Source of the DNA: Bacillota bacterium
GTDB lineage: Bacteria > Bacillota > Clostridia > Peptostreptococcales > Anaerovoracaceae
Direction: 5' to 3'
NCBI GenBank assembly: GCA_017440275.1
Contig: JAFSHN010000007.1
Coordinates: 1 to 60,939 of the forward strand
Length of the DNA stretch: 60,939 bases
The notes under the pieces are model-generated. The model saw only the letters and a program-made list of their open reading frames with translations. It did no database searches and was not told the DNA's origin. How positions within the stretch are numbered: position 1 is the stretch's first letter; each line of letters opens with the position of its first letter. This document shows, in pieces, positions 8,608-25,614 of the stretch. Made by a program: the position numbers and the translations under genes.

Positions 8608-8615
8608 ATATAAAA

Positions 8616-9455: not shown

Positions 9456-9550
9456 TCGTTTTTCCTTCCTGTAAGACCTATTCAAGCCTGCTTTTGACAT
9501 TAACTTAACGGCTACATTGTATCACAGTAAAGGAAAGTTGTTAAGGTAAT

Positions 9551-11185
9551 TTACACTTTATTTTTCCCATTTTTAGCAAAGCCCAGGCATAACAGTCCAA
9601 TTGCCGCTGCACCTAAAGCACAAAGTACATATATTGGATTGTTCACATCTCCGGTCTTTGGAACCTCGTTAACAGGCTCCACTCTGATAAATTCATTAAA
9701 AAGCGAGTTCCCTCCGTTTATTTCTACCAGTATGATTTCTTCACCGCTTTCATCATACTGAACCTCAAAATAATATTTTGTTGGATCAATATAGTACTGT
9801 TCATGTGTTGATAGTTCTTTAATATAATACTCACCTTCCGGCAATAATCCCGTATAAGACAGTATACCATTTTCTTCAGGATATAGTTTTTCAACCATAG
9901 TATCAGGCAGCATTCCTTCAACTTCGCAGGTAAACAAGCCATAACTCACTTCAGCTAATACTTCTTCTGAAGTTATATCCCAATAGGGGAATTTCTCTAC
10001 CAACTTCATAATACTAAAACTTATTTTCTGGTGAGGATTGTATATTTCTTTCACCACATCTGATCCATTAACATTGATTTCTACTATTTCCTTTGAAGGA
10101 ACATAGCCCTTAGGAGCCTTTATTTCCTTAATGAAGTATTTGCCGGGAAGAAGTTTCCCCGTGATTGCTTCCCCATTATGGTCTGTAACCAGTTCTGTTA
10201 TGACTTCCCCATCATCGGTTCTGACTTCAAACACACTACCTGCAAGCAAGGTTTCAACACCTAAAGTTTCACCTCTTTTTATAACTTTTATCCTGCTTGT
10301 CGGAATAACATTAAAAGTTAACGAAAAGCTTTCTGAAGATACGTTTCCGAAAACAGCCATGTCTTGACTCCAAGGAGCTACAAAATAATTGTTTTCCTCA
10401 TTAACCGCCGTATATTTAACTATACCTGCTTCCTTCAATTCACTTTCTGTAATTTCTACTTTTCCCCCTTTACAATTGTCGTCCGCCTTCACTTCAATAA
10501 AATTATCACCCCTTAGATGAGATACTGTTACCCCCTCTTTTGTATATTCAAAATCTCCGTATTCCTTTAATACGTTTTCCAAATCCTTCAGATTTGCAGT
10601 TTCACCTGCTACAATTTCCGGTTCGTCTGTTTCAAATTTCGGTTGTTTGTTCCAATTTGAAATTTGCTTTTCTATACTCTCTTTCCATGCCTTAAAATCT
10701 GCTTCAATTTTTTTATCAGAAAAATAACTGCGGTAGTTACCCTTTGAATCTTTGCCGTTTGCTGCATGTTCAGGCAATGACTGCCATATCATCATCTGTG
10801 TAAACATATAATCTTTTAAATGCGGTTTATCCTTTGAATAAAATCCTAAATATGCTATTTTGCTTTGAACGGAACTGTCATCCATATATCTTTCAACATC
10901 AAAATCTATATTCAGATTATTTGTTTTATTTGCAACAAATTCCTCTCCGTTTGCACCTCTTATCTTATATCCCGATTCAACACAAAATACAGGTTTGTCA
11001 TTTAAAAGATGGTAATACATTCTGCTTTTATTTATTACCATATAATCTTTTATATCGTGATAGCTGTAATAGTCTGTAGGTGTTGATTTCAGATTAAAAA
11101 CCTGTGCCTCTGCAATTGCCGAAGGCATAGTTGCCATTATACACACTACTAACATCATCATTATTCTTTTTTTCCACTTTATCAA
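9551..11185 (-). CDS. Wall-anchored thioester-domain adhesin with two Cna-B-like domains
   Basis: 544 residues from TTG at 11185, which has GGAGG seven bases upstream; the longer frame would begin inside the terminator of the ATPase gene. Residues 1-28 are a signal peptide. A thioester (TQXA-type) domain follows, with the probable bond between Cys68 (FCVESG) and Gln130 (FTQMMIW). Cna-B/SpaA-type domains lie at about 295-375 (KEIKAPKGY) and 385-490 (KELSTHEQYY), each able to form an internal isopeptide bond. The end is VPKTG, a hydrophobic span and a basic tail, so sortase should link it to peptidoglycan; the first residue of the motif is Val rather than Leu. Thioester adhesins bind host or matrix proteins covalently. 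The sortase is not in the window. Confidence 0.88.
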   Translation of the reverse strand: MIKWKKRIMMMLVVCIMATMPSAIAEAQVFNLKSTPTDYYSYHDIKDYMVINKSRMYYHLLNDKPVFCVESGYKIRGANGEEFVANKTNNLNIDFDVERYMDDSSVQSKIAYLGFYSKDKPHLKDYMFTQMMIWQSLPEHAANGKDSKGNYRSYFSDKKIEADFKAWKESIEKQISNWNKQPKFETDEPEIVAGETANLKDLENVLKEYGDFEYTKEGVTVSHLRGDNFIEVKADDNCKGGKVEITESELKEAGIVKYTAVNEENNYFVAPWSQDMAVFGNVSSESFSLTFNVIPTSRIKVIKRGETLGVETLLAGSVFEVRTDDGEVITELVTDHNGEAITGKLLPGKYFIKEIKAPKGYVPSKEIVEINVNGSDVVKEIYNPHQKISFSIMKLVEKFPYWDITSEEVLAEVSYGLFTCEVEGMLPDTMVEKLYPEENGILSYTGLLPEGEYYIKELSTHEQYYIDPTKYYFEVQYDESGEEIILVEINGGNSLFNEFIRVEPVNEVPKTGDVNNPIYVLCALGAAAIGLLCLGFAKNGKNKV

Positions 11186-11200
11186 TTCCTTTCCTCCAAT

Positions 11201-11230
11201 AAAAAAACCGACAAGTGAACTTGTCGGTTT
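11201..11230 (-). terminator. Terminator after the P-type ATPase
   Basis: Ten-bp perfect hairpin ACCGACAAGT/ACTTGTCGGT with a two-base loop, followed by seven Ts on the minus strand. Confidence 0.9.
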
Positions 11231-11243
11231 TATAAATTTTTTA

Positions 11244-13877
11244 TTATTTTGCCATCTTTCTCTGGAAGAACTTAACGATTTCAACAATTGGAATAATTGA
11301 AACTGCCAGTAACATAGAGATTCCGTATTCCATCAGGCTGATGTGTTCAAACTCGAAAGCTTCAGCAAGGAATGGAACATAGAGCACTGCTGTTGTTGCA
11401 ACAAGGCTTGCAAGCCCTGCTAAGAACAGAGCATTGTTTCCGTGCTTCATCTTGAACAAGCTTCCTCTCTGGGAACGCATATTGAAGCTGTGGAAGATTT
11501 CTGTCATAGACATTGTTAAGAATGCCATTGTTGTTCCGTCAGGACTTGTTGCGATTTCCCACATGCCGGATTCAATATAATGTCCAATGAAGTAAGCTAC
11601 CAATGTCAGAACAGATACAACGAGACCCTGGTAAACAACGTCTACGCCAACACCTCCGGAGAATACACCATCGCTTGTCTTTCTTGGAGCACGCTGCATA
11701 ATATCCGCTTCAGGCTTTTCAACTCCTAATGCTAGAGCTGGGAAGCAGTCTGTAATCAGGTTGATAAACAGCAGATGCACAGGATGCAGAATTGTGAATC
11801 CCATCATTGTTGCTACAAAGATAGAGATAACTTCGGACATATTGGAAGCCAATAAGAACTGAATTGCTTTACGAATATTATCGTAAATTCTACGGCCTTC
11901 AGAAACAGCACCTACGATTGTAGCAAAGTTGTCACCAGCCAGTACCATATCAGCTACGTTCTTTGTTACGTCAGTACCGGTAATACCCATACCTACACCG
12001 ATGTCAGCAGACTTGATACTTGGAGCATCATTTACACCGTCGCCTGTCATCGCTGTTACATAGCCCTTTTCTCTCCACATATTTACAATACGAACTTTAT
12101 GTTCAGGCTGTACACGGGCATATACACCGATTGTTTCAATTTCTTTTTTGAATGTTTCGTCATCCATTTCGTTGAGTTGAGCACCTGTAATAGCTCTGCG
12201 GCCTTCTGTCAGAATACCCAGTTCTCTGCCGATGGCAGATGCAGTGTCAGGATGGTCACCCGTAATCATTACAGGCGTGATACCTGCACCGTTACATTCT
12301 TCAATAGCAGCCTTTACTTCAGGTCTTACAGGGTCAATCATACCTTCAAGACCGAGGAAGCAAAGGTCTTTTTCTATAGCAGGAGACATTGTAGCAGGAA
12401 CTTCTTCCAGAATTGTTTGAGATGCCATCAGTACTCTGAGAGCTCTGTCAGCCATTTCCTTGTTAGCTTTCAGGATATTTTCCTTGTCGGCTTCTGTAAT
12501 AGGTCTTGCTACACCGTTTTCCATAATCATAGTACACTTCTTGAGAACTTCATCAGGAGCACCTTTTGTGTACTGAATATACTTTCCGGATTCCTTATCA
12601 GCATGGATAGTAGTCATCATCTTTCTTCCGCTGTCAAAAGGAACTTCCGCAACTCTAGGCAGACGTTCTTCAGTTTCTGTTTTGCTGATGCCAATCTTTT
12701 CAGCATAATTAACTAAAGCACATTCTGTTGGTTCACCTGTTGCTTCGCTGTCACCTTCAACGATTTTAGCATCGCAGCAAAGAGCCATAGCCTGAGCTAA
12801 TAATTTTTCGTTTTCTCCGTAGTAATCAACTACAGTCATTTTATTTTGAGTTAAAGTACCTGTCTTATCTGAACAGATAATCTGCGCGCATCCCAGTGTT
12901 TCTACTGCTGTCAGCTTACGGATAATCGCATTTCTCTTACTCATATTAGTTACGCCGATAGAGAGTACGATTGTAACTACCGCTGCCAAACCTTCAGGAA
13001 TTGCAGCAACAGCTAAGGATACTGCTACCATAAATGTATCCAGCATTACAGTACCATCTACGGATTCTGCTCTGAGTAAGCTTACACCGAAAATAACTAC
13101 GCAAATGCCGAGAACCAGTACTGTTAAGATTTTACTCAGCTGAGCCAGCTTAATCTGAAGAGGAGTCTTACCTTCTTCAGCCTGAGCCAGAGCATCCGCA
13201 ATCTTACCCATTTCAGTGTTCATACCTGTATCGCATACAACTGCCATACCACGGCCGTATACCACTGTACTTCCCATATAAATCATATTCTTACGGTCGC
13301 CGAGAGGAACATCCTTATTATCTCCCAGAACCAAAGTTTCTTCTGTCTTGTCTACAGGAACAGATTCACCGGTAAGTGCCGCTTCTTCAATCTTTAAGCT
13401 TGCACACTGAATGATTCTGCCGTCTGCCGGAACAGCATCACCGGCTTCCAAAAGAATAACATCACCTTTAACTAAATCTTCACTCTTAACAATTGTAATC
13501 TTGCCGTCTCTGTAAACCTTACTTGTGGCAGCAGCCATTTCCTGTAAGGCCTCAATAGCTTTTTCTGCTTTGCTTTCCTGATACACACCCAATACAGCAT
13601 TGATGATAACTACTGCCATAATGATGATAACATCAGTGAAGCTTTCGCCTGAATAGAACGCGGTGATACCGGAAATTACAGCCGCAACGATTAAGATTAT
13701 AATCATAGGGTCTGCAAACTGCATCATCAGTTTTTTGAAAAGAGTGTCCTTTTCAGCTTCTTTTAACTTGTTCTTTCCGTCGGCTGCAAGTCTTGCTTCT
13801 GCTTCCTGAGAAGTAAGGCCAACGGAAGATGAATTGACTTCCTTAAAAGTCTCTTCAGCGGTTTTTAAATAATACAT
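11244..13877 (-). CDS. P2A-type cation ATPase (Ca2+/Mn2+ exporter)
   Basis: 877 residues. All P-type landmarks are visible: the TGESVPVDK actuator loop near 178, PEGL in membrane span 4 near 300, the phosphorylated Asp in DKTGTLTQNKM near 338, the nucleotide-binding KGAPDEVL near 445, and MTGDGVNDAPS near 620. About ten membrane spans. The PEGL segment and overall length place it with SERCA/PMR1-like pumps. The manganese-type riboswitch in its leader argues that its main job is to export Mn2+ when it is in excess, as for YoaB in Lactococcus and MgtA in Streptococcus pneumoniae, with Ca2+ as a possible second substrate. Confidence 0.9.
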   Translation of the reverse strand: MYYLKTAEETFKEVNSSSVGLTSQEAEARLAADGKNKLKEAEKDTLFKKLMMQFADPMIIILIVAAVISGITAFYSGESFTDVIIIMAVVIINAVLGVYQESKAEKAIEALQEMAAATSKVYRDGKITIVKSEDLVKGDVILLEAGDAVPADGRIIQCASLKIEEAALTGESVPVDKTEETLVLGDNKDVPLGDRKNMIYMGSTVVYGRGMAVVCDTGMNTEMGKIADALAQAEEGKTPLQIKLAQLSKILTVLVLGICVVIFGVSLLRAESVDGTVMLDTFMVAVSLAVAAIPEGLAAVVTIVLSIGVTNMSKRNAIIRKLTAVETLGCAQIICSDKTGTLTQNKMTVVDYYGENEKLLAQAMALCCDAKIVEGDSEATGEPTECALVNYAEKIGISKTETEERLPRVAEVPFDSGRKMMTTIHADKESGKYIQYTKGAPDEVLKKCTMIMENGVARPITEADKENILKANKEMADRALRVLMASQTILEEVPATMSPAIEKDLCFLGLEGMIDPVRPEVKAAIEECNGAGITPVMITGDHPDTASAIGRELGILTEGRRAITGAQLNEMDDETFKKEIETIGVYARVQPEHKVRIVNMWREKGYVTAMTGDGVNDAPSIKSADIGVGMGITGTDVTKNVADMVLAGDNFATIVGAVSEGRRIYDNIRKAIQFLLASNMSEVISIFVATMMGFTILHPVHLLFINLITDCFPALALGVEKPEADIMQRAPRKTSDGVFSGGVGVDVVYQGLVVSVLTLVAYFIGHYIESGMWEIATSPDGTTMAFLTMSMTEIFHSFNMRSQRGSLFKMKHGNNALFLAGLASLVATTAVLYVPFLAEAFEFEHISLMEYGISMLLAVSIIPIVEIVKFFQRKMAK

Positions 13878-13907
13878 TTCCTTCTTCCTTTCCGGGTAAA
13901 AGTCGTT

Positions 13908-14043
13908 AAAAAAAACTTCTACCGTATAATAATAGTATATACAGTAAAAGTCTTACTATTTAAGATATTCGCGAATCGCCTTAAAAAACGATTGTGAATG
14001 ACGCAACATATCACATCTAAAGATGCCAGTTACTCCCTTTTAC
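13908..14043 (-). ncRNA. yybP-ykoY (manganese) riboswitch with overlapping terminator
   Basis: The leader opens GTAAAAGGGAGTAAC (14043-14029), contains GCGTCATTCAC, and closes AGTAAGACTTTTAC (13957-13944). The opening and closing ends pair as stem P1 (14037-14043 with 13944-13950). This matches the family's conserved GGGGAGUA loop, GUC segment and CAAGAC closing strand. The closing strand is also the 5' arm of a 14-bp terminator hairpin (13938-13951 with 13915-13928) ending in eight Ts. P1 and the terminator are therefore exclusive: metal binding should stop termination and switch the ATPase on. Family assignment is from memory of the consensus. Confidence 0.78.
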
Positions 14044-14051
14044 GAAGAAAT

Positions 14052-14080
14052 ATTATACTAAATTGTAGCAAAATTGTCAA
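14052..14080 (-). promoter_or_regulatory. Consensus promoter of the P-type ATPase gene
   Basis: Minus-strand TTGACA (14075-14080) and TATAAT (14052-14057) are exactly 17 bases apart. A start near 14045 places the riboswitch at the very 5' end of the message. So strong a promoter makes sense if expression is decided by the riboswitch. Confidence 0.85.
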
Positions 14081-14100
14081 TTGATACCGCTGTTTTCAAC

Positions 14101-14190
14101 TTATCTTAACATAAAAAACACATTCAGTTGAAAATCATTGAGCATAATCATCAGATAAATAATCCCCATAGTTATGATGAGATTTTTCAT
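14101..14190 (-). CDS. 29-residue hydrophobic peptide at the end of the Tad operon
   Basis: The peptide begins MKNLIITMGIIYLM and is hydrophobic to its end. Its ATG overlaps the stop of the 117-residue gene as ATGA, so it is probably translated by coupling. The MKNL start followed by one membrane span repeats the pattern of the three preceding small genes. No strong ribosome site is present, and it could be a decayed or chance frame, but the shared start is hard to dismiss. Confidence 0.45.
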   Translation of the reverse strand: MKNLIITMGIIYLMIMLNDFQLNVFFMLR

Positions 14191-14540
14191 GCACTTTTCC
14201 ACAATCCCTTCCGGTATATAAAAACACTTTTGTCATCATCAATGCCGAGGATTTCATTGCAGGCCACCACATTTTTAACAGGAGCACTTATACTCATTTT
14301 TTCTCCGTCTTCTTCTATTTCAACCAGTGAAGCATCACAATCCAGACACTCTGATATTAAAAGTTTTAATTCTTCTTTCTTTGAATCCTGCCTCCAGTTG
14401 TCACCTGCTATACATTGAAAATTATCAATGGCTTTGTCAGCAGCCGTTATTCTGCTAAAAATCATCTGATTGTTAGCAAATTGCATCACAAAAATCATCA
14501 GAAGCACAACAGCTGCTATCGTTGTTATAAGATCTTTCAT
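14187..14540 (-). CDS. Small membrane-anchored protein of the Tad operon, pseudopilin-like
   Basis: 117 residues. A single N-terminal span begins directly after MKDLITT (about 5-22), followed by about 90 mainly acidic residues with four Cys (FQCIAG, SECLDCD, VVACNE), which could form disulfides outside the cell. The layout is that of a pseudopilin or TadE-like protein without a processed leader, but no family signature is recognised. AGGAGG lies seven bases before the ATG, inside the previous gene. It is the third of four small genes after tadC. Confidence 0.65.
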   Translation of the reverse strand: MKDLITTIAAVVLLMIFVMQFANNQMIFSRITAADKAIDNFQCIAGDNWRQDSKKEELKLLISECLDCDASLVEIEEDGEKMSISAPVKNVVACNEILGIDDDKSVFIYRKGLWKSA

Positions 14541-14542
14541 GT

Positions 14543-14692
14543 TCAGTCCTCCTGGCTGTTATAAATCTCAATTGTTTTCTCCATTGCTCTTTTAGAAACC
14601 TGTTTCATACTGGATTCATCATCACCTACCATCATATCGAAAACATAAACTCCAAGCATAATTGTCCCGATGATAATTACCAGATTTTTCAT
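14543..14692 (-). CDS. 49-residue MKNL-type membrane protein of the Tad operon
   Basis: It starts MKNLVIIIGTIMLGVYVF, one membrane span, then about 30 polar residues ending YNSQED. The ATG overlaps the stop of the 57-residue gene as TAATG, and AGGGGG lies upstream, so translation is coupled. It is too short for most gene callers. Size and location are those of a Flp-type pilin, but the usual cleavage site (Gly followed by x4-Glu-Tyr) is absent. Confidence 0.65.
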   Translation of the reverse strand: MKNLVIIIGTIMLGVYVFDMMVGDDESSMKQVSKRAMEKTIEIYNSQED

Positions 14693-14865
14693 TACGCGCC
14701 CCCTATTATATCCCCAAAATCCATATAATCAGAAATTGCTCCCGTTCCCTCCTTGACTAAATCCGATGCAGCATCCTGCAACGTACCTTCGCCGCCTAAA
14801 ATCAACGTATTCACAATGACTGCCCCCAGCAAGACAGTTCCCAGTATTATTATTAAATTCTTCAT
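14692..14865 (-). CDS. 57-residue MKNL-type membrane protein, candidate pilin
   Basis: It starts MKNLIIILGTVLLGAVIV, one membrane span, then a 35-residue acidic, Gly-rich end (DFGDIIGGA). GAGGAGA precedes the ATG by about five bases. It follows tadC by ten bases, where the major pilin of a Tad locus could be expected. No prepilin peptidase site can be seen, so either the protein is used unprocessed or the family is new. Confidence 0.7.
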   Translation of the reverse strand: MKNLIIILGTVLLGAVIVNTLILGGEGTLQDAASDLVKEGTGAISDYMDFGDIIGGA

Positions 14866-14875
14866 ATCTTCTCCT

Positions 14876-15424
14876 CTACAAAAACATATTATTCAAAGTA
14901 TTTATCGTATCCATAAATACCACTACTACCGCAAAGTTGATAAACAATACAAATACTGTTGCAACAGCAACTGCCATAATTATCACACTGTTCCGTTGTG
15001 CTCTTCGCATGGCAAGTGTAGTATTCTTCTCCATCATCATCTGCTGAAAAACTTCCATCTGCTCTGTAAGCTCCGAAGGATTAATCTTATCAATTTTTGA
15101 TAGAATCACAGCAAAATTTCTCGCAGCTTTAGTTCCTACTTCAACCGCCAAAATATTAAATGCATCCTCATCCCGTCCTCCTCGATACAGAGTAATCATC
15201 TCCCCATAAAAAGGTTTAAGAAATGTACTGTTATTCATCAGACTTTCATATATGTAATCTGCTGACAAAGGTGTTTCTCTTCTTACCAAAGATAAATTTT
15301 TCAAAATCACACTGCTGCTGAAAAGTTCTCTGTCCAGCATAGCGCTGTTTTTCTTCATTAACCATTTATTTAGTTGTTTTCCAATGTGTCTAGCATAATC
15401 CTTGATGTTTAATCGTCCCATCAT
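14876..15424 (-). CDS. tadC: TadC-like inner-membrane platform protein
   Basis: 182 residues, short for the family, whose members usually reach about 300. It has a helical cytoplasmic part with the GspF-like pattern around RGGRDEDAFNILAVEVG (residues about 82-98), then a membrane region near the end (about 148-175). TadC pairs with TadB to form the platform on which the ATPase builds the pilus. The N-terminal membrane spans usual in TadC are missing, so this is a reduced form. Seven bases separate it from tadB. Confidence 0.75.
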   Translation of the reverse strand: MMGRLNIKDYARHIGKQLNKWLMKKNSAMLDRELFSSSVILKNLSLVRRETPLSADYIYESLMNNSTFLKPFYGEMITLYRGGRDEDAFNILAVEVGTKAARNFAVILSKIDKINPSELTEQMEVFQQMMMEKNTTLAMRRAQRNSVIIMAVAVATVFVLFINFAVVVVFMDTINTLNNMFL

Positions 15425-15430
15425 ATCACC

Positions 15431-16336
15431 TTACAAATCCAGTTTTGTTTTTGACAAGAAAAAGTTCAAAAGCAATCCTATCATATACATCACTAAAGAC
15501 AGAACGAACCAGTTCATACCGGTCGTCGTAAAAAATTGATATTTAAAGTATTCTTTAGCAGTCAGGCCAAAGTACTTGGTAGCTCCCAATACAGTAAGCA
15601 GGTAGCATACCGGTATCAAATATTTAAGAATCAATCCGCTCTCATTATTTTCCCTTTTGGAATACTCAGATACTTTTCTTGCCTGAGAAACTGTTTTCAC
15701 CAAATCTTCCATAGCCGCAGTTACTCTTATGCCTGAAACAAGTGAAAAAAACATATTATCAACCATCACAGATGACCACGAAGTGCCTAAACCAAATTCA
15801 AAATCTCTCAACAAATGTCTGATTTCCTCCGGATTGCTTGCCGTATTCAGACCTTTCGATAAATTAAAAAGAAGCCTCTTGCTCCCCGGTGCTTCTTTAA
15901 TGGTCAGTGCTGTCACCTCTATGGCGCGCTGCATATTATAGTAATTTATCTTATAATTATCTAACAATTCTGTAAGAAGTATTTCCCCTTCCCTTGACGA
16001 TTTAACTCTGACTGCCTGCAGCCTGCACATCAAAAGCAATACAGGAAGCAGCAATGCTGATACACTTGCTAAAACCAGTAATCCGTATGTTATATGCATC
16101 CTTAATACTAAGAATGTGACCGCAGCGGCTGAAACAGAAATAATTAAAATACCATATCCAATTCTTATATCATTTATGCCAAGCGTTATTGCCGCAAGCC
16201 TTGTCATCATTTCAACAAGACTGTTTTTAGAGTTCTTTTTTCTCATCAAAGGATGCAGCAAAGCACAGAATTCTTCCCAATAATACAATGCCAGCCCAAA
16301 GATGGATAAAAAAGTCATTGCTGATTCAGCATACAT
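15431..16336 (-). CDS. tadB: TadB-like inner-membrane platform protein
   Basis: 301 residues from ATG at 16336, preceded by GAGGGA; the longer TTG frame lacks a ribosome site. It has a membrane span near the N-terminus, two more at about 75-120 and two near the C-terminus, framing a cytoplasmic GspF-like domain. It overlaps the end of cpaF by eleven bases, which suggests coupled translation and equal dosage. With TadC it should form the platform of a Tad (tight adherence) apparatus. Confidence 0.8.
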   Translation of the reverse strand: MYAESAMTFLSIFGLALYYWEEFCALLHPLMRKKNSKNSLVEMMTRLAAITLGINDIRIGYGILIISVSAAAVTFLVLRMHITYGLLVLASVSALLLPVLLLMCRLQAVRVKSSREGEILLTELLDNYKINYYNMQRAIEVTALTIKEAPGSKRLLFNLSKGLNTASNPEEIRHLLRDFEFGLGTSWSSVMVDNMFFSLVSGIRVTAAMEDLVKTVSQARKVSEYSKRENNESGLILKYLIPVCYLLTVLGATKYFGLTAKEYFKYQFFTTTGMNWFVLSLVMYMIGLLLNFFLSKTKLDL

Positions 16337-17720
16337 TATTGTCCCTCGTTCCTTTGTAATACCTTGGATAAACAACTGTATTTTCCATAATCGGATTATG
16401 TTTTTCCAACATCATAAGCATTTCTTCCATACGTTTAAAATCCTCCGGCCAAATTTTTCCCATCTTTTTCTTATCCTCCCCTATATCATATTTCCAAAGC
16501 CATTTTCCCATTTCTTCATCATAACGACAGATGCAATGTATAGAGACCCTGTCCATGCGAACATCATATCTGTACTCATGTATAGAACGCAGCCTCTTTT
16601 TGCTTCTGTCGCCGGGTACCTGATAAAATTCCAGCACATAATTAAAATTCCTGAAAAACTGAGAGATTATGCCTTCAAAACTGCCTCCGTATTTCGATGT
16701 TATGCCCATAGCAATTTTGTATGGAATATCCTGGGGATCTCCGGCATGCACGGTCGCTTTGCTCCTGGTGGTCCCCGATGAAGTAATATCCATAGCAAGT
16801 TTGTATGCCGTCGCATCTCTCATCTCCTCAAGAAGCACATAGTCATTGTCGCCTCTCAATAAAGATTTAAATATGCTTTCCAGTTCATTGCCATCTGCAA
16901 CAAGCTGCATAATAGGTGCTTCAGGCATTAGAATCTGCCATGGTGTTTCAGGATCGGTCGCAATAGCAAGTCCTTCCAACTGTTCATCCTCATATCGCTG
17001 CCATGTCTGCATAAAAGTAGTTTTACCCGAACGAACCGGTCCCGTAAAAAGCACATTATAGCCAAGTTTTACCATTACTTTGAAAAGTTCAACTGAATCA
17101 GCGGGAATAGTTCCGAGCCCTGCCATTTTCTCAAAGGTCAGTTCCTTCAAAACATATTTTCTGAAAATCATTATATCCTGCCCCGCTTTTGTTTTCTCAC
17201 CGGAGTAAATAGTAATTCTTATTCCGTTTTTCAAATAAACTTCATGAAATCCTTTTTCAAGTCTTTCTCTCGGCGTTGCCATAAGCAAAGCCCTTTTCAA
17301 CTGTTCTCTCCGGCTTTCACTGATTTTTTGAGGTTGCAGAACAGATTTACCATCAATAAGACAATACAGTCGGTCTCCGATTAGTTTGGCAGAAGATGAT
17401 TCCTTGTATTCATCAGTTTTGTCATATGCCCATGGGTCAAGACCGCTAAGACCATAAATTTCCGCGAAAACTCCGTCTGTCATATCCTGATACCACGGCG
17501 GACATCTGATGCTTCTTGCCTCCGGAATCTCCTTTATGATTCTTCCAATACGTTCTTTATACAAGTCCACATCTTTTTCGTATCCAATTATTGCTCTTTT
17601 TTCCTGTTCAAGAATTTTTTCTTTCTCCCATTCGGTGGCATTTTTCCATTCTTTTTCAAAGAAGCTTTTGACCGTACTGCAAAGTCGGAAAAATTCATCA
17701 AATTGTTTTTCTTGTTCCAT
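16326..17720 (-). CDS. cpaF: CpaF/TadA secretion ATPase
   Basis: 464 residues from ATG at 17720, six bases after AGGAGG; ATG at 17723 is the alternative. The ATPase powers pilus assembly at the inner face of the membrane. Walker A is GPVRSGKTT (near 250), the Asp box and Walker B region is DYVLLEEMRD, and the His box TVHAGDP follows, all as in CpaF-type GspE ATPases. The N-terminal 100 residues are helical. The end carries a long charged extension with YDIGEDKKK. The Walker B segment reads LLEEMRD where many relatives have VGEVRG. Confidence 0.9.
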   Translation of the reverse strand: MEQEKQFDEFFRLCSTVKSFFEKEWKNATEWEKEKILEQEKRAIIGYEKDVDLYKERIGRIIKEIPEARSIRCPPWYQDMTDGVFAEIYGLSGLDPWAYDKTDEYKESSSAKLIGDRLYCLIDGKSVLQPQKISESRREQLKRALLMATPRERLEKGFHEVYLKNGIRITIYSGEKTKAGQDIMIFRKYVLKELTFEKMAGLGTIPADSVELFKVMVKLGYNVLFTGPVRSGKTTFMQTWQRYEDEQLEGLAIATDPETPWQILMPEAPIMQLVADGNELESIFKSLLRGDNDYVLLEEMRDATAYKLAMDITSSGTTRSKATVHAGDPQDIPYKIAMGITSKYGGSFEGIISQFFRNFNYVLEFYQVPGDRSKKRLRSIHEYRYDVRMDRVSIHCICRYDEEMGKWLWKYDIGEDKKKMGKIWPEDFKRMEEMLMMLEKHNPIMENTVVYPRYYKGTRDNNVC

Positions 17721-17730
17721 CATTGTCCTC

Positions 17731-18327
17731 CTAACTATACAAGACGGTAAACCGTTTCCCTGTTCCTGCCAAATTAGATAATTCCACCAACCTATCAGCC
17801 GTGGATACAATTTCTATTCTGCTAACGGTGCCTTCTGAATTAAATCGTTCATGGTCGAGAGATACCACTTCCCGGCCTGAGGCATCGAAAGAATGTACTA
17901 CAACTGCATCGATAATTTTAACCTTACCATTAAAGAAACTCACTTCATCTCCCCGTCTTATACTTTTAGGAAAAGAAAGCATCCAGTCCTCAGGCACGCA
18001 TAAAACATATTTTCCCTTTTCCTTTCCTATTGCATATCTTGACTCACAGAAAAACTCTTTGTGCAGTTCTGAATCTTTGGCAATGTACTGTATAGTTTCC
18101 TTTCCGACAATCCATTGCAAATCTTCTGCTGATAAAGCAGAAGAAGATGGATTTTCCATCTTCTTCACAGTCAAATCTTTTTCTTTAATTACAGTATTGG
18201 CAGCAATGTTTTCTTTGAGAACCAGGACTTCTTCGTAGGACAGATTTTCTCTGCCCCAAAATTCCCAAATAATCATAGATGTCAATGCCACCGAAATTAT
18301 TATCAATCCGGCAAATCTCCTGTTCAA
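17731..18327 (-). CDS. cpaB: CpaB/RcpC-like SAF-domain protein
   Basis: 198 residues beginning at TTG with AAAGGAG eight bases upstream. One N-terminal span (about 7-24) is followed by a SAF domain with NIAANTVIKEKDLTV (about 39-53), typical of CpaB, which in didermic bacteria acts near the secretin and in Gram-positives is thought to sit at the outer face of the membrane. First structural gene of the Tad operon and directly downstream of the Spo0A-type boxes. Confidence 0.82.
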   Translation of the reverse strand: MNRRFAGLIIISVALTSMIIWEFWGRENLSYEEVLVLKENIAANTVIKEKDLTVKKMENPSSSALSAEDLQWIVGKETIQYIAKDSELHKEFFCESRYAIGKEKGKYVLCVPEDWMLSFPKSIRRGDEVSFFNGKVKIIDAVVVHSFDASGREVVSLDHERFNSEGTVSRIEIVSTADRLVELSNLAGTGKRFTVLYS

Positions 18328-18365
18328 TTATCCATCTCCTTTCTTTAATTCTAATAGTGATTATT

Positions 18366-18471
18366 TTCGACAATAACACATTACCATTTTCTTACATTAC
18401 TTTCAGCACAATTTCAAAAATTGTTGCAAGAACTTTCCGACTGTTTTCGACAAATTCGTCATATTTCGTCA
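18366..18471 (-). promoter_or_regulatory. Cluster of Spo0A-type boxes ahead of the Tad operon
   Basis: Four exact TGNCGAA matches on the minus strand: TGACGAA at 18465-18471 and 18455-18461, TGTCGAA at 18446-18452 and 18366-18372. A fifth, imperfect copy (AGTCGGAA) is at 18435-18442. The upstream boxes are 9-10 bases apart, so they face the same side of the helix. TGNCGAA is the known binding site of the response regulator Spo0A. I see no equally clear -35/-10 pair, which fits a regulated promoter. The first box overlaps the stop codon of the upstream gene. Confidence 0.7.
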
Positions 18472-18879
18472 ATACAGCCCCAGATTTTTTGCCACATAGA
18501 ATATGTACATCTGCTGCCACTTCTTCCACGTGTTGCTGTGGCACTGGTCACCATAAGGAATACCATCCATAAGTTTATTTCTAATTCCGTCTCTGTACTT
18601 CTCCGGTATTTTAGTCAGAGCAGATTCTATCGCATCTATCTTCATAGACAGATTTATTATTTGCATTGCCCTGCGCTCTGTGATACTTGTGCTTTGCGCA
18701 GTTCCTTCACAAGTTCTCATCGTGCTGAAATCCTGATTTTGCAATGAGCCCTCTCTCTCGATTGCTTCCTGCAGCACCTTTTTCATTCTTGGTACGTCTT
18801 TCACTGCCCACAATGCCTGTCTGTAAACAGGTTCAGGAAGTAAAAAAGCCTTAAGTCTTTTTTGCTGATAGTTTTCCAT
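18469..18879 (-). CDS. Sigma-70 region 4-like regulatory protein, unknown target
   Basis: 136 residues. The C-terminal half (about 80-136) reads like a region 4 helix-turn-helix: a helix with IESALTKIPEKYR, then GIPYGD and HSNTWKKWQQMYIF. Similar small proteins are known as ArpU/RinA-type late regulators in phages and as lone chromosomal genes in Clostridia. No phage genes surround it. It precedes the Tad operon on the same strand, 140 bases away, and may regulate it. AAAGGAGGCG precedes the ATG. A single TGTCGAA box lies 114 bases upstream (18993-18999). Confidence 0.6.
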   Translation of the reverse strand: MENYQQKRLKAFLLPEPVYRQALWAVKDVPRMKKVLQEAIEREGSLQNQDFSTMRTCEGTAQSTSITERRAMQIINLSMKIDAIESALTKIPEKYRDGIRNKLMDGIPYGDQCHSNTWKKWQQMYIFYVAKNLGLY

Positions 18880-18992
18880 AATCTCGCCTCCTTTTGTCCT
18901 GTTTTAGCACATATAAGAAACTTTTTACAACACATTTTTTTCCAAATGTCTGATTTAGTCTTTTTGATGCAGATTATTGCCGATATTCTGAA

Positions 18993-18999
18993 TTCGACA
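18993..18999 (-). promoter_or_regulatory. Lone Spo0A-type box upstream of the sigma-like gene
   Basis: One exact TGTCGAA on the minus strand, directly after the terminator of the metallo-beta-lactamase gene and 114 bases before the sigma-like start. Alone it could be chance; together with the cluster at 18366-18471 it is worth noting. Confidence 0.35.
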
Positions 19000-19034
19000 A
19001 AAAAGTCGGCAAAGCATATTGCCTTGCCGACTTT
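18998..19034 (-). terminator. Terminator after the beta-CASP metallo-beta-lactamase gene
   Basis: AAAGTCGGCAA/TTGCCGACTTT hairpin with inner GC pairs, followed on the minus strand by a T run. Confidence 0.85.
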
Positions 19035-19049
19035 GAGTTCATAATCTAT

Positions 19050-20729
19050 TTATTTGTTTTGTTCACTGAGCGGTGTCATATCGCGGTCTTCTGCAGTGAT
19101 GGAAGATCCTAGATTTACTGAAGCCTTTTCAAGTTCTAAAACAATATTATTTATCTGCTGAAGCTTTTCTGCAGATATGTCAGTTTCCATAGCTCCCTGT
19201 GCATTTGAAAGCATCTTTTCAAGTTCAGCTTTGATATTGACAATTTTGTCTTTCAGAGCCTCAACATTTTCTTCAGTCATTACTTCGTGGATTACTTCAT
19301 CTTTGCTGAGAAGTTCACCGGTTTCAAGAATGAATTCAGAGTTTTCTCTTACAACAACCGGATTGTATCCGAATTGACCTCCGATAATTTCAGCAAAATC
19401 TTCCTTTGATTCAGTTTCACCATGAACCAGGAATACCTGTTTAGGTTTCTGTACAAATCCCCCCAGCCAATCTAAAAGTCCTTTCTGGTCTGCGTGTCCC
19501 GAAAAGCCTTCCAGATTATGAATCTGGGCACCTACCACTACGGTTTCTCCAAACAGCTTGATTTCGGTGGCACCATTTATAAGCAGTCTGCCCAAAGTGC
19601 CTTCAGCCTGATAACCTACAAAAACAATACTGTTTCTGCTGTCCCAAAGATTATGCTTCAAGTGATGACGAATACGTCCCGCTTCGCACATACCGCTGGC
19701 AGAAATGATTATCTTAGGGTTTTTATCCATATTCAGCATCTGGGAATCTGCAGTATTTCTTGTAAATTTTAAATTTTTAAAATCAAGCGGATGATCACCC
19801 TTAAGTATATAAGCTCTTGTTTCTTCATCGAACACCTGCGCATTCTTCTTAAAAACTTCTGTAGCCGTTGTAGCCATAGGGCTGTCAATGTAAACATTAA
19901 CATTTTCCAATTGAGCTTGGTATTCAGGATGTTCTTCGTAGAATTTATTGAACTGATAAATCAGTTCTTGAGTTCTGCCTACAGCAAAGGAAGGAATTAT
20001 AACACTTCCGCCACGTTTAACAGTATCAAGAGTAATATGAATCAATTCATCAATACTTGTAGAATTAGCCGGATGCAGTCTGTTGCCATATGTAGTTTCC
20101 ATAATGACATAGTCTGCCTTCTTAATCTTTACAGGGTTTCTCAGGATAGGTCTGTCCATCACACCTAAATCGCCTGAAAAGACAATTTTAGAAGTGCTTT
20201 CCCCTTCTGTAACCCAAAGTTCAGTAATGGCAGAGCCTAAAATATGCCCTGCATCATTAAATACAATTTTAACTTCAGGATTTATTTCAATGAGCTGGTC
20301 ATAAAGAACCGGCTTAACAAGTTTTAAAGCTGCTTCTGCGTCCTTACTTGTATATAATGGTTCAACCGCAGGTTTACCGGCTCTCAAATTCTTTCTCGAC
20401 TGCATTTCTGCGTCTTTTTCATGGATAAAAGCACTGTCTTTGAGCATTACTTCAAGCAAATCAGCCGTAGCATCTGTACAGTAAATCTGTCCTTTAAATC
20501 CCCTCTTCACCAACAAAGGCAATCTGCCGCAGTGGTCAATGTGAGCGTGACTCAAAAGCACAAATTCAACATTTTCAGGTTCAAAAGGAAACGGCTCATA
20601 ATTCAATTCTTCCATTGCCTTTCCGCCTTGGAACTGGCCGCAATCCAATAAAAACTGGTGCTTGTCAGTAGTAATTAAGTGACAAGACCCTGTAACTCCT
20701 ATAGAAGCTCCGCAAAATTTAATTTTCAT
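19050..20729 (-). CDS. Beta-CASP metallo-beta-lactamase, RNA-processing type
   Basis: 559 residues from ATG at 20729 behind AAAGGGGG; the longer frame overlaps glpP and lacks a site. The MBL core has HAHIDHCGRLP near 55, the HILGSA loop near 165 and the SGDLGVMDRP strand; the beta-CASP part has PSFAVGRTQE, SASGMCEAGR and the closing LVHGE. This set is typical of CPSF-like nucleases (YhfI/Ysh1-like) that cut or trim RNA. The C-terminal 100 residues form an acidic coiled-coil that is not part of the core. It follows glpP by 19 bases, an unusual partner for a glycerol operon, so it may simply be carried by readthrough. Confidence 0.85.
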   Translation of the reverse strand: MKIKFCGASIGVTGSCHLITTDKHQFLLDCGQFQGGKAMEELNYEPFPFEPENVEFVLLSHAHIDHCGRLPLLVKRGFKGQIYCTDATADLLEVMLKDSAFIHEKDAEMQSRKNLRAGKPAVEPLYTSKDAEAALKLVKPVLYDQLIEINPEVKIVFNDAGHILGSAITELWVTEGESTSKIVFSGDLGVMDRPILRNPVKIKKADYVIMETTYGNRLHPANSTSIDELIHITLDTVKRGGSVIIPSFAVGRTQELIYQFNKFYEEHPEYQAQLENVNVYIDSPMATTATEVFKKNAQVFDEETRAYILKGDHPLDFKNLKFTRNTADSQMLNMDKNPKIIISASGMCEAGRIRHHLKHNLWDSRNSIVFVGYQAEGTLGRLLINGATEIKLFGETVVVGAQIHNLEGFSGHADQKGLLDWLGGFVQKPKQVFLVHGETESKEDFAEIIGGQFGYNPVVVRENSEFILETGELLSKDEVIHEVMTEENVEALKDKIVNIKAELEKMLSNAQGAMETDISAEKLQQINNIVLELEKASVNLGSSITAEDRDMTPLSEQNK

Positions 20730-20748
20730 TTTGTGTCCCCCTTTATTA

Positions 20749-21300
20749 TTATCTGTAGTTCCACAATTCTCTGTCGGCTGTTGATACAGCAGTTGCACCT
20801 GCTTCGATGGCCGTATCCACATCTTCTTTAAACTCAATCAAACCGCCCGCCAGTATCTCCATAGATACTTTTTCAGCAAACTCTTTGATCTTTTTTTCAA
20901 CTACGCCGGGCATAATTTCAACCACGTCAGGCTTGGCAATTCTGATGGATTCTACTGCAGTATCCACAGAGTGTGAGTCAACGATAAAGAATCGTTGAAC
21001 TGTAATCAAGCCCAAATCTTTCGCAGGTCTTATCATATTGGTCTTTGTTGTTAAAATTCCATCTACCCCTATACTTTTCAAATATGCCATCCCTGCGCGG
21101 TCTTTACCGATTCCTTCCACAAAATCCATATGGATAAAAATAATTTTCCCCGCATCATGAGCCTTATCAATGTAAGTCTTCATTGTCATAATGTTGGAAT
21201 AAAGCAAAAAAATTACATCCACAGCAGATTTCAGCGAATATTCAAAGTCTTCTTTTGTTCGCACTGCTGCACATACTTTTCGCTTGCTAAATACAGACAT
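20749..21300 (-). CDS. glpP: Glycerol-3-phosphate responsive antiterminator
   Basis: 183 residues, the normal GlpP length, a TIM-barrel with HMDFVEGIGKDRAG near 55, DGILTTK, VEIMPGV and the phosphate-binding AGGLI near the end. With glycerol 3-phosphate bound, GlpP lets transcription pass a terminator in the leader of glp genes. It lies within the very operon it should control, 17 bases after the FAD oxidoreductase gene. A candidate target terminator is at 24181-24230. Confidence 0.92.
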   Translation of the reverse strand: MSVFSKRKVCAAVRTKEDFEYSLKSAVDVIFLLYSNIMTMKTYIDKAHDAGKIIFIHMDFVEGIGKDRAGMAYLKSIGVDGILTTKTNMIRPAKDLGLITVQRFFIVDSHSVDTAVESIRIAKPDVVEIMPGVVEKKIKEFAEKVSMEILAGGLIEFKEDVDTAIEAGATAVSTADRELWNYR

Positions 21301-21317
21301 TTCTCCTCATCTCCAGT

Positions 21318-22721
21318 CTATCGTAAATTAAAAGTTCTGGCACAAACTAAATCAGCACCTGTGCCTTCTATATTTTTTATTATAATATCTCCAAGTTTAA
21401 TTGGCAACTCTAAGGTTTTTTCATTAACTGCTCTCATACAGTCAAATAGTTTATCATACGGAACGGGTCTGTCGGTTTTAACCGGTACCATCTGACCGTT
21501 TGAAGCACACATAATAGTTGTCAAAGTTCTTTCCGGTGCGGTTACTTCCTTAATTGCGTATTTTTCCCCTCTCGGACAAGTATTTCCTTGTACATCGTAA
21601 GTTCCATCACCAAGCATGTTTACAGTTATACTGCATCCTCTTGGACATACAGTGCAAATAACTGTTTTTCTGTCACCTTGAATTAAATGTTTAACTCCCT
21701 TTTTTTCAGGGATGTGTTTCTTCCCTTGGTTTATATTATCTTGCACAAAAGGTCTGCCCATAGCAAAAAGTGCTGCGTTTCTGCCCGCCATTTCACCTTC
21801 TTCCGAAACAAAATCCACTAATTCATGTACTTTTACCACATTGCCGCAAGCAAAAATCCCATCTACTGTTGTCTGTTTGTTTTCATCAACGACAGGACCT
21901 TTTGTTTTCAAAGAAATCTCCGCTCCCGCTTCCTTTGTCAACTCATTTTCGGGAATCAGGCCAACAGACAGCATCAGCGTGTCACACTCTATATATTCCT
22001 CAGTTCCTGCAATAGGCTGCAGGTTATCATCCACCGCTGAAACAGTTACTCCACATACTCTGTCGCGTCCATGGATTTTCGTTACTGTATGATGCAATTT
22101 TAACGGTATATCAAAATCGTTGAGGCACTGCACAATATTTCTTGTAAGTCCTCCCGAATCCTCCATTATTTCACATACAGCTTTGATATGGGCACCTTCC
22201 AAAGTCATTCTGCGAGCCATAATGAGACCTATATCTCCTGACCCCAGAATCACCACTTCTTTGCCCGGCATATAGCCTTTAATATTGACAAATTTCTGAG
22301 CTGTTCCTGCAGTAATAACGCCTGCAGGTCTGTCGCCGGGAACATTCAGCGCACCTCTTGTTCTTTCTCTGCAACCCATTGCAAGAACCACCGCACCGGC
22401 TTTAATTTGAACGAATCCATTTTCGCTTACACATGTAACAATTCTATCATCACTTAAAGATGTTACAGCAGTATTTACAAGCACCTCTATATTAAAATCT
22501 TCAACCATTTTTTCATATTTTTCACCGTATTCGGGACCTGTCAATTCCTGTCCGAATCTGTGCAGTCCGAAGCCGTTATGAATACACTGTTTAAGAATAC
22601 CTCCGAGGCTGTCATCTCTTTCAATGATAATAACGTCTTCTGCACCCGTTTCCTTTGCGGCAACGGCTGCACTCATTCCTGCAGGACCTCCGCCGATAAC
22701 GACAACATCCGCTGTTCTCAT
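21318..22721 (-). CDS. GlpB-like FAD oxidoreductase fused to a DUF1667 domain
   Basis: 467 residues. The N-terminal Rossmann motif is VVIGGGPAGMSAA, a second NAD-type motif (VILGSGDIGLIMA) is near 160, and the FAD end motif is TTVDGIFACGN near 290. After about residue 345 follows a Cys-rich DUF1667 domain (CTVCPRGCSI, NTCPRGEKY, a later CAS) able to hold a metal or FeS site. In many Clostridia these are two separate genes. It probably hands electrons from glycerol 3-phosphate oxidation to the chain. Start and the previous stop overlap as TAATG. Confidence 0.88.
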   Translation of the reverse strand: MRTADVVVIGGGPAGMSAAVAAKETGAEDVIIIERDDSLGGILKQCIHNGFGLHRFGQELTGPEYGEKYEKMVEDFNIEVLVNTAVTSLSDDRIVTCVSENGFVQIKAGAVVLAMGCRERTRGALNVPGDRPAGVITAGTAQKFVNIKGYMPGKEVVILGSGDIGLIMARRMTLEGAHIKAVCEIMEDSGGLTRNIVQCLNDFDIPLKLHHTVTKIHGRDRVCGVTVSAVDDNLQPIAGTEEYIECDTLMLSVGLIPENELTKEAGAEISLKTKGPVVDENKQTTVDGIFACGNVVKVHELVDFVSEEGEMAGRNAALFAMGRPFVQDNINQGKKHIPEKKGVKHLIQGDRKTVICTVCPRGCSITVNMLGDGTYDVQGNTCPRGEKYAIKEVTAPERTLTTIMCASNGQMVPVKTDRPVPYDKLFDCMRAVNEKTLELPIKLGDIIIKNIEGTGADLVCARTFNLR

Positions 22722-24160
22722 TATTTTTTGCCTCCTTTCACTCGTCCAAACAGTATATTCGATCCACTGCCTTTTTTATTTACTTCATTTGGTGAAACAC
22801 CCAGTTCTCTTGCCAAAATTTCCACGACAGGAGGCAGGCAGAAGCCTCCCTGACATCTTCCCATACCGCTTCTTGTCCTTCTCTTTATACCATCTACGTC
22901 TACCGCCCCTGGCTGTCTGTGTATTGCTTCCACAATTTCGCCTTCTGTTACCTCTTCACAGCGACAAACAATTCTGCCATAAGCAGGATTCTCTATGATT
23001 AATTTTGACTTTTCTTCTTGTGTATATTCTCTAAATCTCTTTTTAGGCACACGACAAGGGTTGTAGTTTGCTTTTTTTCGCGCGGATAATCCATCGTTAA
23101 TAAGCATTTCTTCGACCATCACACCTATTGCCGGCGCGGAAGAAAGTCCCGGTGACTCAATTCCTGCCACATTGACAAAACCCTTTTGCGGCATATTGAT
23201 TATGAAGTCACCTTTGTTTCCATGGGCCCTTAAACCGGTAAATTGTGTTATGACCTTATCCAATGGAACATCGTCAAAGAACTCTGCCTCTTTAGACTTG
23301 ACAAAACTCAGTCCGCTATCTGTTACGCTCAAGTCCTCTTTATCTTCTCTATCAATAGAAGTAGGTCCCAATAATATATTTCCATCTACCGTTTTTGTCG
23401 CAAGAACTCCCTTTCCCATTTTTGTAGGAACCCTGAATATTGTCATATCGGTCAGATATGATGCTTCTTTATCGAGTAACAGATATTCTCCGGCTCTTGG
23501 AGTTATAAAGAAAGAATTATCACCAATCATCGCTGCAATTTTATCACTGTAAAGACCGGCGCAATTAATAACATATTCTGATACTATCTTGCGGCCATCG
23601 GCCGATTCAATGTAATATAACCCGTCTCTGTTTTCTATAGAGTCAACCTCAAAGTTCAGAAGCAGTTCCGCCCCGTTATCCATTGCATTGCCGATAGCTT
23701 CAATGGTTAATTCGTAGGGGCATACTACTCCGCTTGAGGGCACATATAAAGCCGTTTTTACCCTCTCTGACAAATGTTTTTCCTTTTTTTGAACATCTTC
23801 CCCATTTAGTATTTCAAGTCCAATGCAGCCGTTTTTGATGCCTCGCTCATACAACTCATTAATTCCATCAGCTTCTTCGTCATTGAAAGCTACCACCATC
23901 GCTCCATTACGTCTGAAGTGAACATCCAGTTCTCTGCACGTCTGCTCCATCAGTTTGTTTCCTTCTATATTCAGTTTAGCCTTCAATGTGCCCGGAAGCG
24001 GATCGTAGCCTCCGTGGACTATTCCACTGTTGGCTTTTGACTGACCCATGGCTACATCCTGCTCTTTTTCAAGAATTACAATATTCATATCATATGCGGA
24101 AAGCCTTCTTGCCACCATTGCTCCAATGACGCCTCCGCCTATTATCGCTGCCTTATACAT
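22721..24160 (-). CDS. glpA: Anaerobic glycerol-3-phosphate dehydrogenase-like FAD enzyme with BFD-type 2Fe-2S domain
   Basis: 479 residues. The N-terminus has AIIGGGVIGAMVARR and ILEKE of a DAO-fold FAD enzyme; GIVHGGYDPLPGT near 45 and FIINMPQKGFVNVAGIESPG near 325 match the GlpA/LhgO group. The last 90 residues hold CRCEEVTEGEIVEAI and GRCQGGFC, the four Cys of a bacterioferritin-associated-ferredoxin-like 2Fe-2S domain. It oxidises glycerol 3-phosphate to DHAP, passing electrons to the next gene's product. It is first in the operon and starts just after the leader terminator. Confidence 0.85.
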   Translation of the reverse strand: MYKAAIIGGGVIGAMVARRLSAYDMNIVILEKEQDVAMGQSKANSGIVHGGYDPLPGTLKAKLNIEGNKLMEQTCRELDVHFRRNGAMVVAFNDEEADGINELYERGIKNGCIGLEILNGEDVQKKEKHLSERVKTALYVPSSGVVCPYELTIEAIGNAMDNGAELLLNFEVDSIENRDGLYYIESADGRKIVSEYVINCAGLYSDKIAAMIGDNSFFITPRAGEYLLLDKEASYLTDMTIFRVPTKMGKGVLATKTVDGNILLGPTSIDREDKEDLSVTDSGLSFVKSKEAEFFDDVPLDKVITQFTGLRAHGNKGDFIINMPQKGFVNVAGIESPGLSSAPAIGVMVEEMLINDGLSARKKANYNPCRVPKKRFREYTQEEKSKLIIENPAYGRIVCRCEEVTEGEIVEAIHRQPGAVDVDGIKRRTRSGMGRCQGGFCLPPVVEILARELGVSPNEVNKKGSGSNILFGRVKGGKK

Positions 24161-24180
24161 CCGGTCGACCTCCTTAATCT

Positions 24181-24230
24181 TATAAAAAGACGCGCAGGAA
24201 CAAGAGGTTTCCCTCCATTCAAACGCGTCT
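24181..24230 (-). terminator. Terminator between PHP gene and glpA; candidate GlpP-controlled attenuator
   Basis: AGACGCG (24188-24194) and CGCGTCT (24224-24230) close a hairpin with an inner GAGG/CCTC stem, followed on the minus strand by TTTTTATA. It lies 20 bases before the glpA start. It may simply end the upstream PHP gene, or be the antitermination site for GlpP; no strong promoter is seen between 24231 and 24266. Confidence 0.7.
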
Positions 24231-24266
24231 CAATCTCCTCTGCTTCGTATTATTAATTCTTGTCAA

Positions 24267-25601: not shown

Positions 25602-25614
25602 AACTTTCTCCTCT

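Follow-up and report, generated by a model that had tools for sequence, protein, structure and literature searches.

The 60,939-nucleotide stretch of DNA analyzed here (hereafter the window; contig JAFSHN010000007.1 of assembly GCA_017440275.1, from a Bacillota bacterium of the family Anaerovoracaceae) carries on its minus strand an operon that runs from cpaB through cpaF, tadB and tadC into a coupled set of four small genes, called P1 to P4, of 57, 49, 117 and 29 codons. The encoded proteins begin with MKNL (P1, P2 and P4) or MKDL (P3), enter a membrane helix at residue 4, and carry no leader in the window. From the gene order, conservation and coding signal of this locus, and from the homology of its ATPase and platform proteins to those of Tad pili, we infer a real, widespread and little-described Tad-like machine that most likely works like a Tad pilus. 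Its genes moderately favor its placement as a branch of the Tad (type IVc pilus) machine that is divergent and leaderless. Such a machine, with tiny leaderless subunits that appear ready for use as made, occurs in some gut bacteria and on certain plasmids of soil bacteria.

We assign a probability of about 0.5 to a more specific proposal, which is that, within the type IV filament superfamily, these loci represent a whole Bacillota branch without prepilin leaders or maturation, wherein subunits are translated from the mature N-terminus and assembled unprocessed, and in some plasmid versions the tip subunit bears a wall hydrolase. In our preferred reading, the CpaF ATPase and the TadB/TadC platform would lift the small subunits out of the membrane. 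P1 (likely the major subunit), P2, P3 and P4 would be translated from the would-be mature N-terminus, such that neither a class III leader nor a leader peptidase would be needed, and are predicted to insert with the N-terminus inside and the C-terminus outside. P1 and P2 would then form a thin helical fiber or a short pseudopilus, to which P3 and P4 would contribute minor or tip components, and CpaB would serve as an outer collar. In the genus of the window the machine is pared down, with TadZ gone and P4 present as a helix only. An initial annotation of the window had suggested unprocessed micro-pilins or a new Tad-like surface or secretion system; unprocessed micro-pilins and a Tad-type machine fit best.

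A Tad-like operon with four conserved small genes

The gene order, the sizes and starts of the small proteins and the membrane helix from residue 4 were all re-read in the sequence and agree with the initial annotation. The features of the operon are as follows (aa, amino acids).

17731..18327, minus strand: cpaB-like gene, 198 aa, TTG start; one N-terminal helix plus SAF domain (Pfam SAF, E 2.2e-6)
16326..17723, minus strand: cpaF/tadA-type ATPase gene, 465 aa, divergent subfamily (Pfam T2SSE, E 9e-11)
15431..16336, minus strand: tadB-like platform protein gene, 301 aa; family profile-profile match to canonical TadB/TadC
14876..15424, minus strand: tadC-like platform protein gene, 182 aa, one predicted helix; family profile-profile match, no Pfam match
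14692..14865, minus strand: P1, 57 aa, candidate for the major subunit, without a leader; conserved family A2, tandem copies in relatives
14543..14692, minus strand: P2, 49 aa, P1 paralogue; family A5
14187..14540, minus strand: P3, 117 aa, N-terminal helix plus an outer part of ~90 aa; family A3
14101..14190, minus strand: P4, 29 aa, candidate helix-only remnant of a TadE/TadG-like protein; family A4, longer in relatives

The small genes are tightly packed, as evident by the junctions tadC/P1 (10-nucleotide gap), P1/P2 (1-nucleotide overlap), P2/P3 (2-nucleotide gap) and P3/P4 (4-nucleotide overlap). Hydropathy analysis gives one helix-like stretch at residues 4 to 22 in each of P1 to P4, five helices in TadB and one in TadC.

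The window CpaF finds solved CpaF chains as its best matches in the PDB (E 2.4e-8). Among 196 genomes of the class, members of its own subfamily match at E<1e-130, and the next ATPases begin at E ~1e-13. The cpaB-like protein matches the CpaB model TIGR03177 at E 1.6e-4, below the cut-off of that model. Neither TadB nor TadC of the window matches Pfam T2SSF, and profile-profile comparison was used because single-sequence Pfam scans of both proteins gave nothing. A first hhalign comparison with a mixed GspF-type set yielded only 3.7% and 1.9% for TadB and TadC. With a canonical profile built from 42 TadB/TadC-type frames, the TadB family matches at 95.3% over 213 columns and the TadC family, more weakly, at 73% over 123 columns, whereas the CpaF and P4 controls reach 0.6% and 0.8%. 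TadB and TadC of the window system match each other at 2.6%. Plasmid homologues of TadB hit Pfam T2SSF directly with E 4e-4 and 7.9e-5, matches that do not reach the cut-off of that model. Naming these genes tadB and tadC was therefore apt in that the platform is of the Tad type, but this identity is visible only with profile methods. TadC had also been called short, and its 182 aa lie within the range of 157 to 299 aa found at 49 loci of relatives. Thus, the window encodes the CpaF/TadA-type ATPase, the TadB plus TadC platform and, by its SAF match, the CpaB/RcpC protein by which a Tad pilus is recognized.

No Pfam family matches the window copies of P1 to P4 above chance, and the families of P1, P3 and P4 give no consistent match, with hits scattered over single members. 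Conservation was assessed beside cpaF in other genomes. A CpaF search of 296 genomes of the family matched 274, many only weakly through other ATPases. A scan of 129 named relatives retained the best 80 loci, of which 68 extend at least 2.9 kb beyond cpaF and 12 are too short. Counts of P1, P2 and P3 in these relatives come from a search pattern that combines gene position with start and length and favors hydrophobic starts and lysine at residue 2 (Lys2). By this pattern, a P3-type gene follows tadC at 68 of 68 testable loci, a P1/P2-type gene is present at 67 of 68, and P1, P2 and P3 occur together at 61 of 68. At the sole P1/P2 exception, locus L163 of Paenibacillus tyrfis, the pattern overlooked a tandem pair of 57-aa P1-like genes. 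The layout is as in the window in Paenibacillus, in three genomes of family f146, in genomes G349 and G441, and on the Bacilli plasmids described below. Matches of the P3 profile in G333 and G395 adjoin unrelated genes and were set aside as chance.

Codon comparison was applied to five of the six genomes of the same genus, as the contig of the sixth ends early. For each small gene, divergence is greater at the third codon position than at the first two in 10 of 10 pairs. Even the 29-codon P4, which is 52-66% identical within the genus, changes at 26-33% of positions 1 and 2 and at 41-69% of position 3. P1 to P4 are real conserved coding genes.

Leaders, processing and resemblances of the small subunits

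Class III signal peptides are described as defining for prepilins in the available text of PMC10191384. In the window, only 9, 12, 6 and 14 open codons precede P1, P2, P3 and P4, respectively. No start codon lies among those before P1, P2 or P3, and P4 has one GTG four codons ahead. Stop codons lie too close upstream for a leader to fit, in keeping with the earlier suggestion that these proteins may be unprocessed. Given these stops and a helix that begins at residue 4, P1 to P4 lack a class III signal peptide, and for this reason we do not classify the system under Tad pili. Among relatives, a start codon at least six codons upstream is lacking for P1 in 46 of 64, P2 in 53 of 64, P3 in 59 of 68 and P4 in 51 of 54. 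An acidic residue at positions 4 to 12, in sets for which the search pattern favored hydrophobic starts, occurs in P1 in 1/64, P2 in 0/64, P3 in 0/68 and P4 in 0/54. Twenty small annotated plasmid proteins chosen without the pattern have an acidic residue at positions 5 to 14 in 0/20. Lys2 was considered as a universal mark of these subunits and rejected, since it is favored by the pattern and plasmid copies carry D, E, N, S, R or G at residue 2.

Leader processing does exist in these cells, and the window subunits would offer it nothing to cut. The source genome is a 1.46-Mb draft of 77 contigs with 75% completeness, and absences reported for it hold within that draft. Its only Peptidase_A24 gene is on contig C27, with no pilus genes in the surrounding 9 kb; hence there is no linked TadV, and the window lacks a prepilin peptidase, as first reported. 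Across the family, this peptidase is present in 272 of 296 genomes and in 152 of the 152 good ones. Its absence was rejected as a test of leaderlessness, given that nearly every family genome has the enzyme and that leadered Flp1 pilins are common there too. The prevalence of the peptidase would also permit an unlinked PilD-type enzyme to cut the subunits at an atypical site within the hydrophobic stretch, such as after Gly9, which is common in P1 (42/64) and P2 (40/64). However, Gly9 is replaced by Ala or Ser in many relatives, it is accompanied by neither a charged leader nor a Glu, and the alignment of P4 described below places residue 2 at the mature start. We regard such cleavage as highly improbable.

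The same genome carries a canonical Tad locus (L249) on contig C32, with a CpaF (T2SSE, E 2.2e-48), two T2SSF matches (platform protein, E 9e-9) and a 55-aa Flp1-like pilin (PF16982, E 1.3e-10) whose leader, read by eye, ends in KEG before the helix. This pilin is the only Flp1-like one found in the draft, in agreement with the absence of an Flp signature from the window. In principle, then, P1 to P4 could be a membrane scaffold or platform regulators, with a leadered Flp1 encoded elsewhere as the true cargo. Flp1-like pilins occur in 266 of the 296 genomes of the family, and sharing of subunits between machines is conceivable. Yet the Flp1 of this genome adjoins its own CpaF and T2SSF platform genes, P1/P2-type genes stand beside a window-type CpaF at 67 of 68 loci with P1 tandemly amplified in several, and some draft genomes, such as G031 and G161, have a strong CpaF match but no Flp1 match. 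We consider a borrowed Flp1 cargo unlikely. Likewise, a full Flp and TadV set elsewhere had been named as something that might serve the window genes; an Flp1 and a peptidase do exist elsewhere, but that Flp1 has its own CpaF and platform and the small genes are coding. In six genomes (G043, G116, G142, G157, G246 and G275), the Flp1-like matches run through stop codons, and the pilin may be decaying there.

Profile-profile comparison of P1 with P2 gives 98.7%, which identifies them as paralogues. An N-terminal segment is common to the small proteins (P1-P3 72.5%, P1-P4 84.8%, P2-P3 77.3%, P3-P4 90.1%). Near-identical tandem P1 copies occur on contig C63 of the source genome (three) and in Paenibacillus tyrfis (two) and, as identified by place and size, also on Planococcus plasmids (three in L288, two in L291). 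These copies fit a bulk or major subunit. The mature Tad pilin of Caulobacter is a single 45-residue helix (PMC11067988, available text), and P1, at 43-71 aa across relatives, would therefore need no trimming to be such a subunit. The contig C63 locus (L033) is a second copy of the system, with 46% CpaF identity, TadZ, and three tandem near-identical 51-aa P1 genes, P2 and P3. This contig may be a binning artefact; its tetranucleotide distance is 0.176, versus 0.097-0.137 for chunks of the window and 0.159 and 0.153 for the C32 and C27 pieces.

For P4, resemblance to TadE/TadG-like minor pilins, which are marked by a transmembrane helix followed by an LxxAADAAALA-type segment, was judged from its longer relatives; the window copy is the helix only. 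The long P4 family A4 matches the TadG-like Tad domain at 58%, and at 70% after 12 members are added. At a low threshold, P4 residues 2-54 align with TadG-like residues 17-69 over 53 columns without a gap, and P4 residue 2 meets residue 17, the first residue after the leader Gly. The default alignment (residues 3-49 on 18-64) keeps the same register. Reversed P4 gives 2.4%, the reversed Tad domain 1.9%, P3 at most 5.8%, and P1, P2, TadB, TadC and CpaF at most 1.7%. Weak matches of single members, which lean in the same direction, were seen for P4 with Tad PF13400 (3/32, best E 0.0075) and TIGR03816 TadE-like (1/32, E 0.0012), and for P1 with Arch_flagellin (2/41, best E 0.0018).

Several observations weigh against a leaderless, unprocessed pilus. 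Some relatives have an upstream start with room for a leader (P1 18/64), and P1-like copies on a Paenibacillus sonchi plasmid begin with MKKDSISAG before the helix, slightly like a short leader. Glu5, which contacts neighboring subunits in Tad and other pilins (available text of PMC10191384 and PMC11067988), is missing from the subunits. Most clostridial subunits have Lys2, a count favored by the pattern, and this residue would be awkward at the center of a Tad-type fiber. With a near-universal peptidase, processing at an unusual site may occur. The similarity of P4 to TadG, at 58-70%, is not certain, and P1 gives just 4.9% with Flp1-like pilins, on a level with the TadB control (4.0%). Matches of the P1 profile on four tested plasmids are weak, the two best at E 0.0035 and 0.018 and all others at 0.69 or above, and P1 is therefore identified there by place and size.

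The reduced window locus and its plasmid relatives

No TadZ gene lies upstream of cpaF in the window, as the initial annotation had noted, and a TadG search of the draft genome returned 0 matches. A secretin is not expected in a monoderm, and its absence says little in a Gram-positive bacterium. Among 64 compared loci with both ends readable, TadZ is present at 48 and P4 is 112-201 aa long at most, whereas the genus of the window keeps only the 29-aa helix and no TadZ. The window locus is thus a reduced form from which TadZ and the outer part of P4 are missing, rather than the founding type. In the raw count, P4 is short or absent at 16 of 16 loci without TadZ and at 5 of 48 with TadZ. After three loci were corrected by eye (L116 and L166 have a long P4; L170 has a long P4 without TadZ), these values become 15 of 16 and 3 of 48. 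However, 15 of the 16 TadZ-less loci sit in one part of the CpaF tree, and a tree test (with L116 corrected, before the correction of L166 and L170) found two well-supported independent pairs and a median p of 0.5. TadZ loss and P4 truncation are thus associated, in a statistically weak manner and with dependence unproven. By eye, L170, a second Sinanaerobacter locus, adjoins mobile-element-like genes upstream of cpaF. In L242, small membrane-protein genes in the first 2 kb of the reverse strand, immediately ahead of cpaB, resemble by eye a secretion cluster of the conjugation type.

The system reaches beyond the Clostridia in which it was first noted, onto plasmids of Bacilli. The window CpaF finds 24 plasmid records, nearly all from Bacilli by name, with matches over at least 80% of CpaF in 22 of the 24 and identities of 23-28% in the 20 listed. 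One phage record is also matched, at half coverage. Ten of the 24 plasmid records were read. Profiles detect TadB-type proteins at 10 of 10 loci and P3 and P4 at 9 of 10 (weakest E 8.9e-4 and 0.0048); the tenth record, filed as Aeromonas, has a single platform gene followed by masked sequence.

In two Planococcus plasmids of the ten, P4 runs into an M23 peptidase domain (L288:10813-11739 and L291:10590-11489; E 1.7e-30 and 1.8e-32). This fusion is evidence that the C-terminus of P4 lies outside the cell, and hints at a tip that opens the wall. Shorter P4 proteins on plasmids L296 and L297 carry the name 'peptidase M23'. The fusion also favors a pseudopilus, in which a short piston beneath or across the wall, rather than a surface pilus, would export proteins or open peptidoglycan. 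Large proteins annotated SLH, PKD or cell-wall-binding downstream of the block on several plasmids point the same way, as does a P3 as widespread as P1. However, SLH- and LPXTG-type neighbors are rare, at 6 of 58 named genomic loci by motif scan, and the near-identical tandem copies of P1 suggest a bulk subunit. We therefore hold a piston or wall-piercing device to be possible but doubtful.

Occurrence on plasmids raises another explanation, that there, and perhaps ancestrally, the machine makes the cell contacts for conjugation. At 4 of 10 plasmid loci, a gene for a VirD4-type coupling protein, TraM recognition or T4SS DNA transfer is found no more than 6.5 kb away (the coupling protein of L290 by Pfam, E 7.2e-62), and a further record, L292, is typed MPF_T by MOB-suite. 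The same program types 21 of 24 records as non-mobilizable, and no transfer gene was noticed at 8000-26000 of the window, with no systematic search of genomic loci for such genes. A mating role is quite unlikely on this evidence, and a leaderless Tad-type machine remains our preferred reading.

Just upstream of the operon, at 18469..18879 on the minus strand, a 136-aa gene without a Pfam match may encode a regulator of the operon. Proteins judged similar by eye lie upstream of cpaB in several genera (L051-L057, L068, L073, L044 and L047). The second gene downstream of the operon (9551-11287, minus strand) encodes a protein with a SpaA domain, a weak match to a thioester domain and a sortase-like VPKTG signal, and TED/SpaA proteins are also downstream in L096 and L117. 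A link of the operon to surface adhesins is not claimed, as the motif scan found it at only the 6 of 58 loci given above.

Comparison with known systems

The available text of PMC10191384 takes the presence and cleavage of a leader as a step that defines type 4 pilins. Our literature searches, whose coverage excluded most subscription papers, found no description of leaderless type IV pilins. If the machine works as proposed, it would reveal which maturation parts membrane extraction and assembly need, and would explain why prepilin-based searches overlook these loci. Since it occurs in culturable strains, among them Aminicella lysinilytica DSM 28287, Emergencia timonensis and Alicyclobacillus acidocaldarius DSM 446 (on pAACI01), and on Bacilli plasmids, direct testing is possible.

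Like the Tad/Flp (type IVc) pilus, the window-type system has CpaB, CpaF, TadB, TadC, usually TadZ, small helix-only subunits and a candidate TadG-like minor protein. Unlike that pilus, it has no class III leader, Glu5/Tyr6 or linked TadV, its ATPase and platform are divergent, and its subunits belong to no Pfam family. The Flp1-like (PF16982) locus on contig C32 is also of the Tad type and resides in the same cell, but has a leadered pilin and a canonical ATPase and platform. Archaellins are the best PDB matches of the P1 profile through their mature N-terminal helix, with residue 4 of P1 aligned to residue 7 of the 8rh5 chain, at a weak E of 0.045 that is not significant alone. Unlike P1, archaellins are leadered.

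The 'no Flp_2' tad-like loci of Gram-positive bacteria (Imam et al., 2011; PMC3244431), compared by description only, share Tad ATPase, platform, TadZ and RcpC homologues and the absence of a recognizable prepilin. These loci (kluyveri, C. cellulolyticum and others) differ in carrying tadV, and the available portion of that report says nothing of conserved leaderless subunits. The Kil apparatus of Myxococcus, according to the available text of PMC8460266, differs in having an Flp-type major pilin, a predicted peptidase and a secretin, and is alike as a Tad-like machine put to use beyond simple pili.

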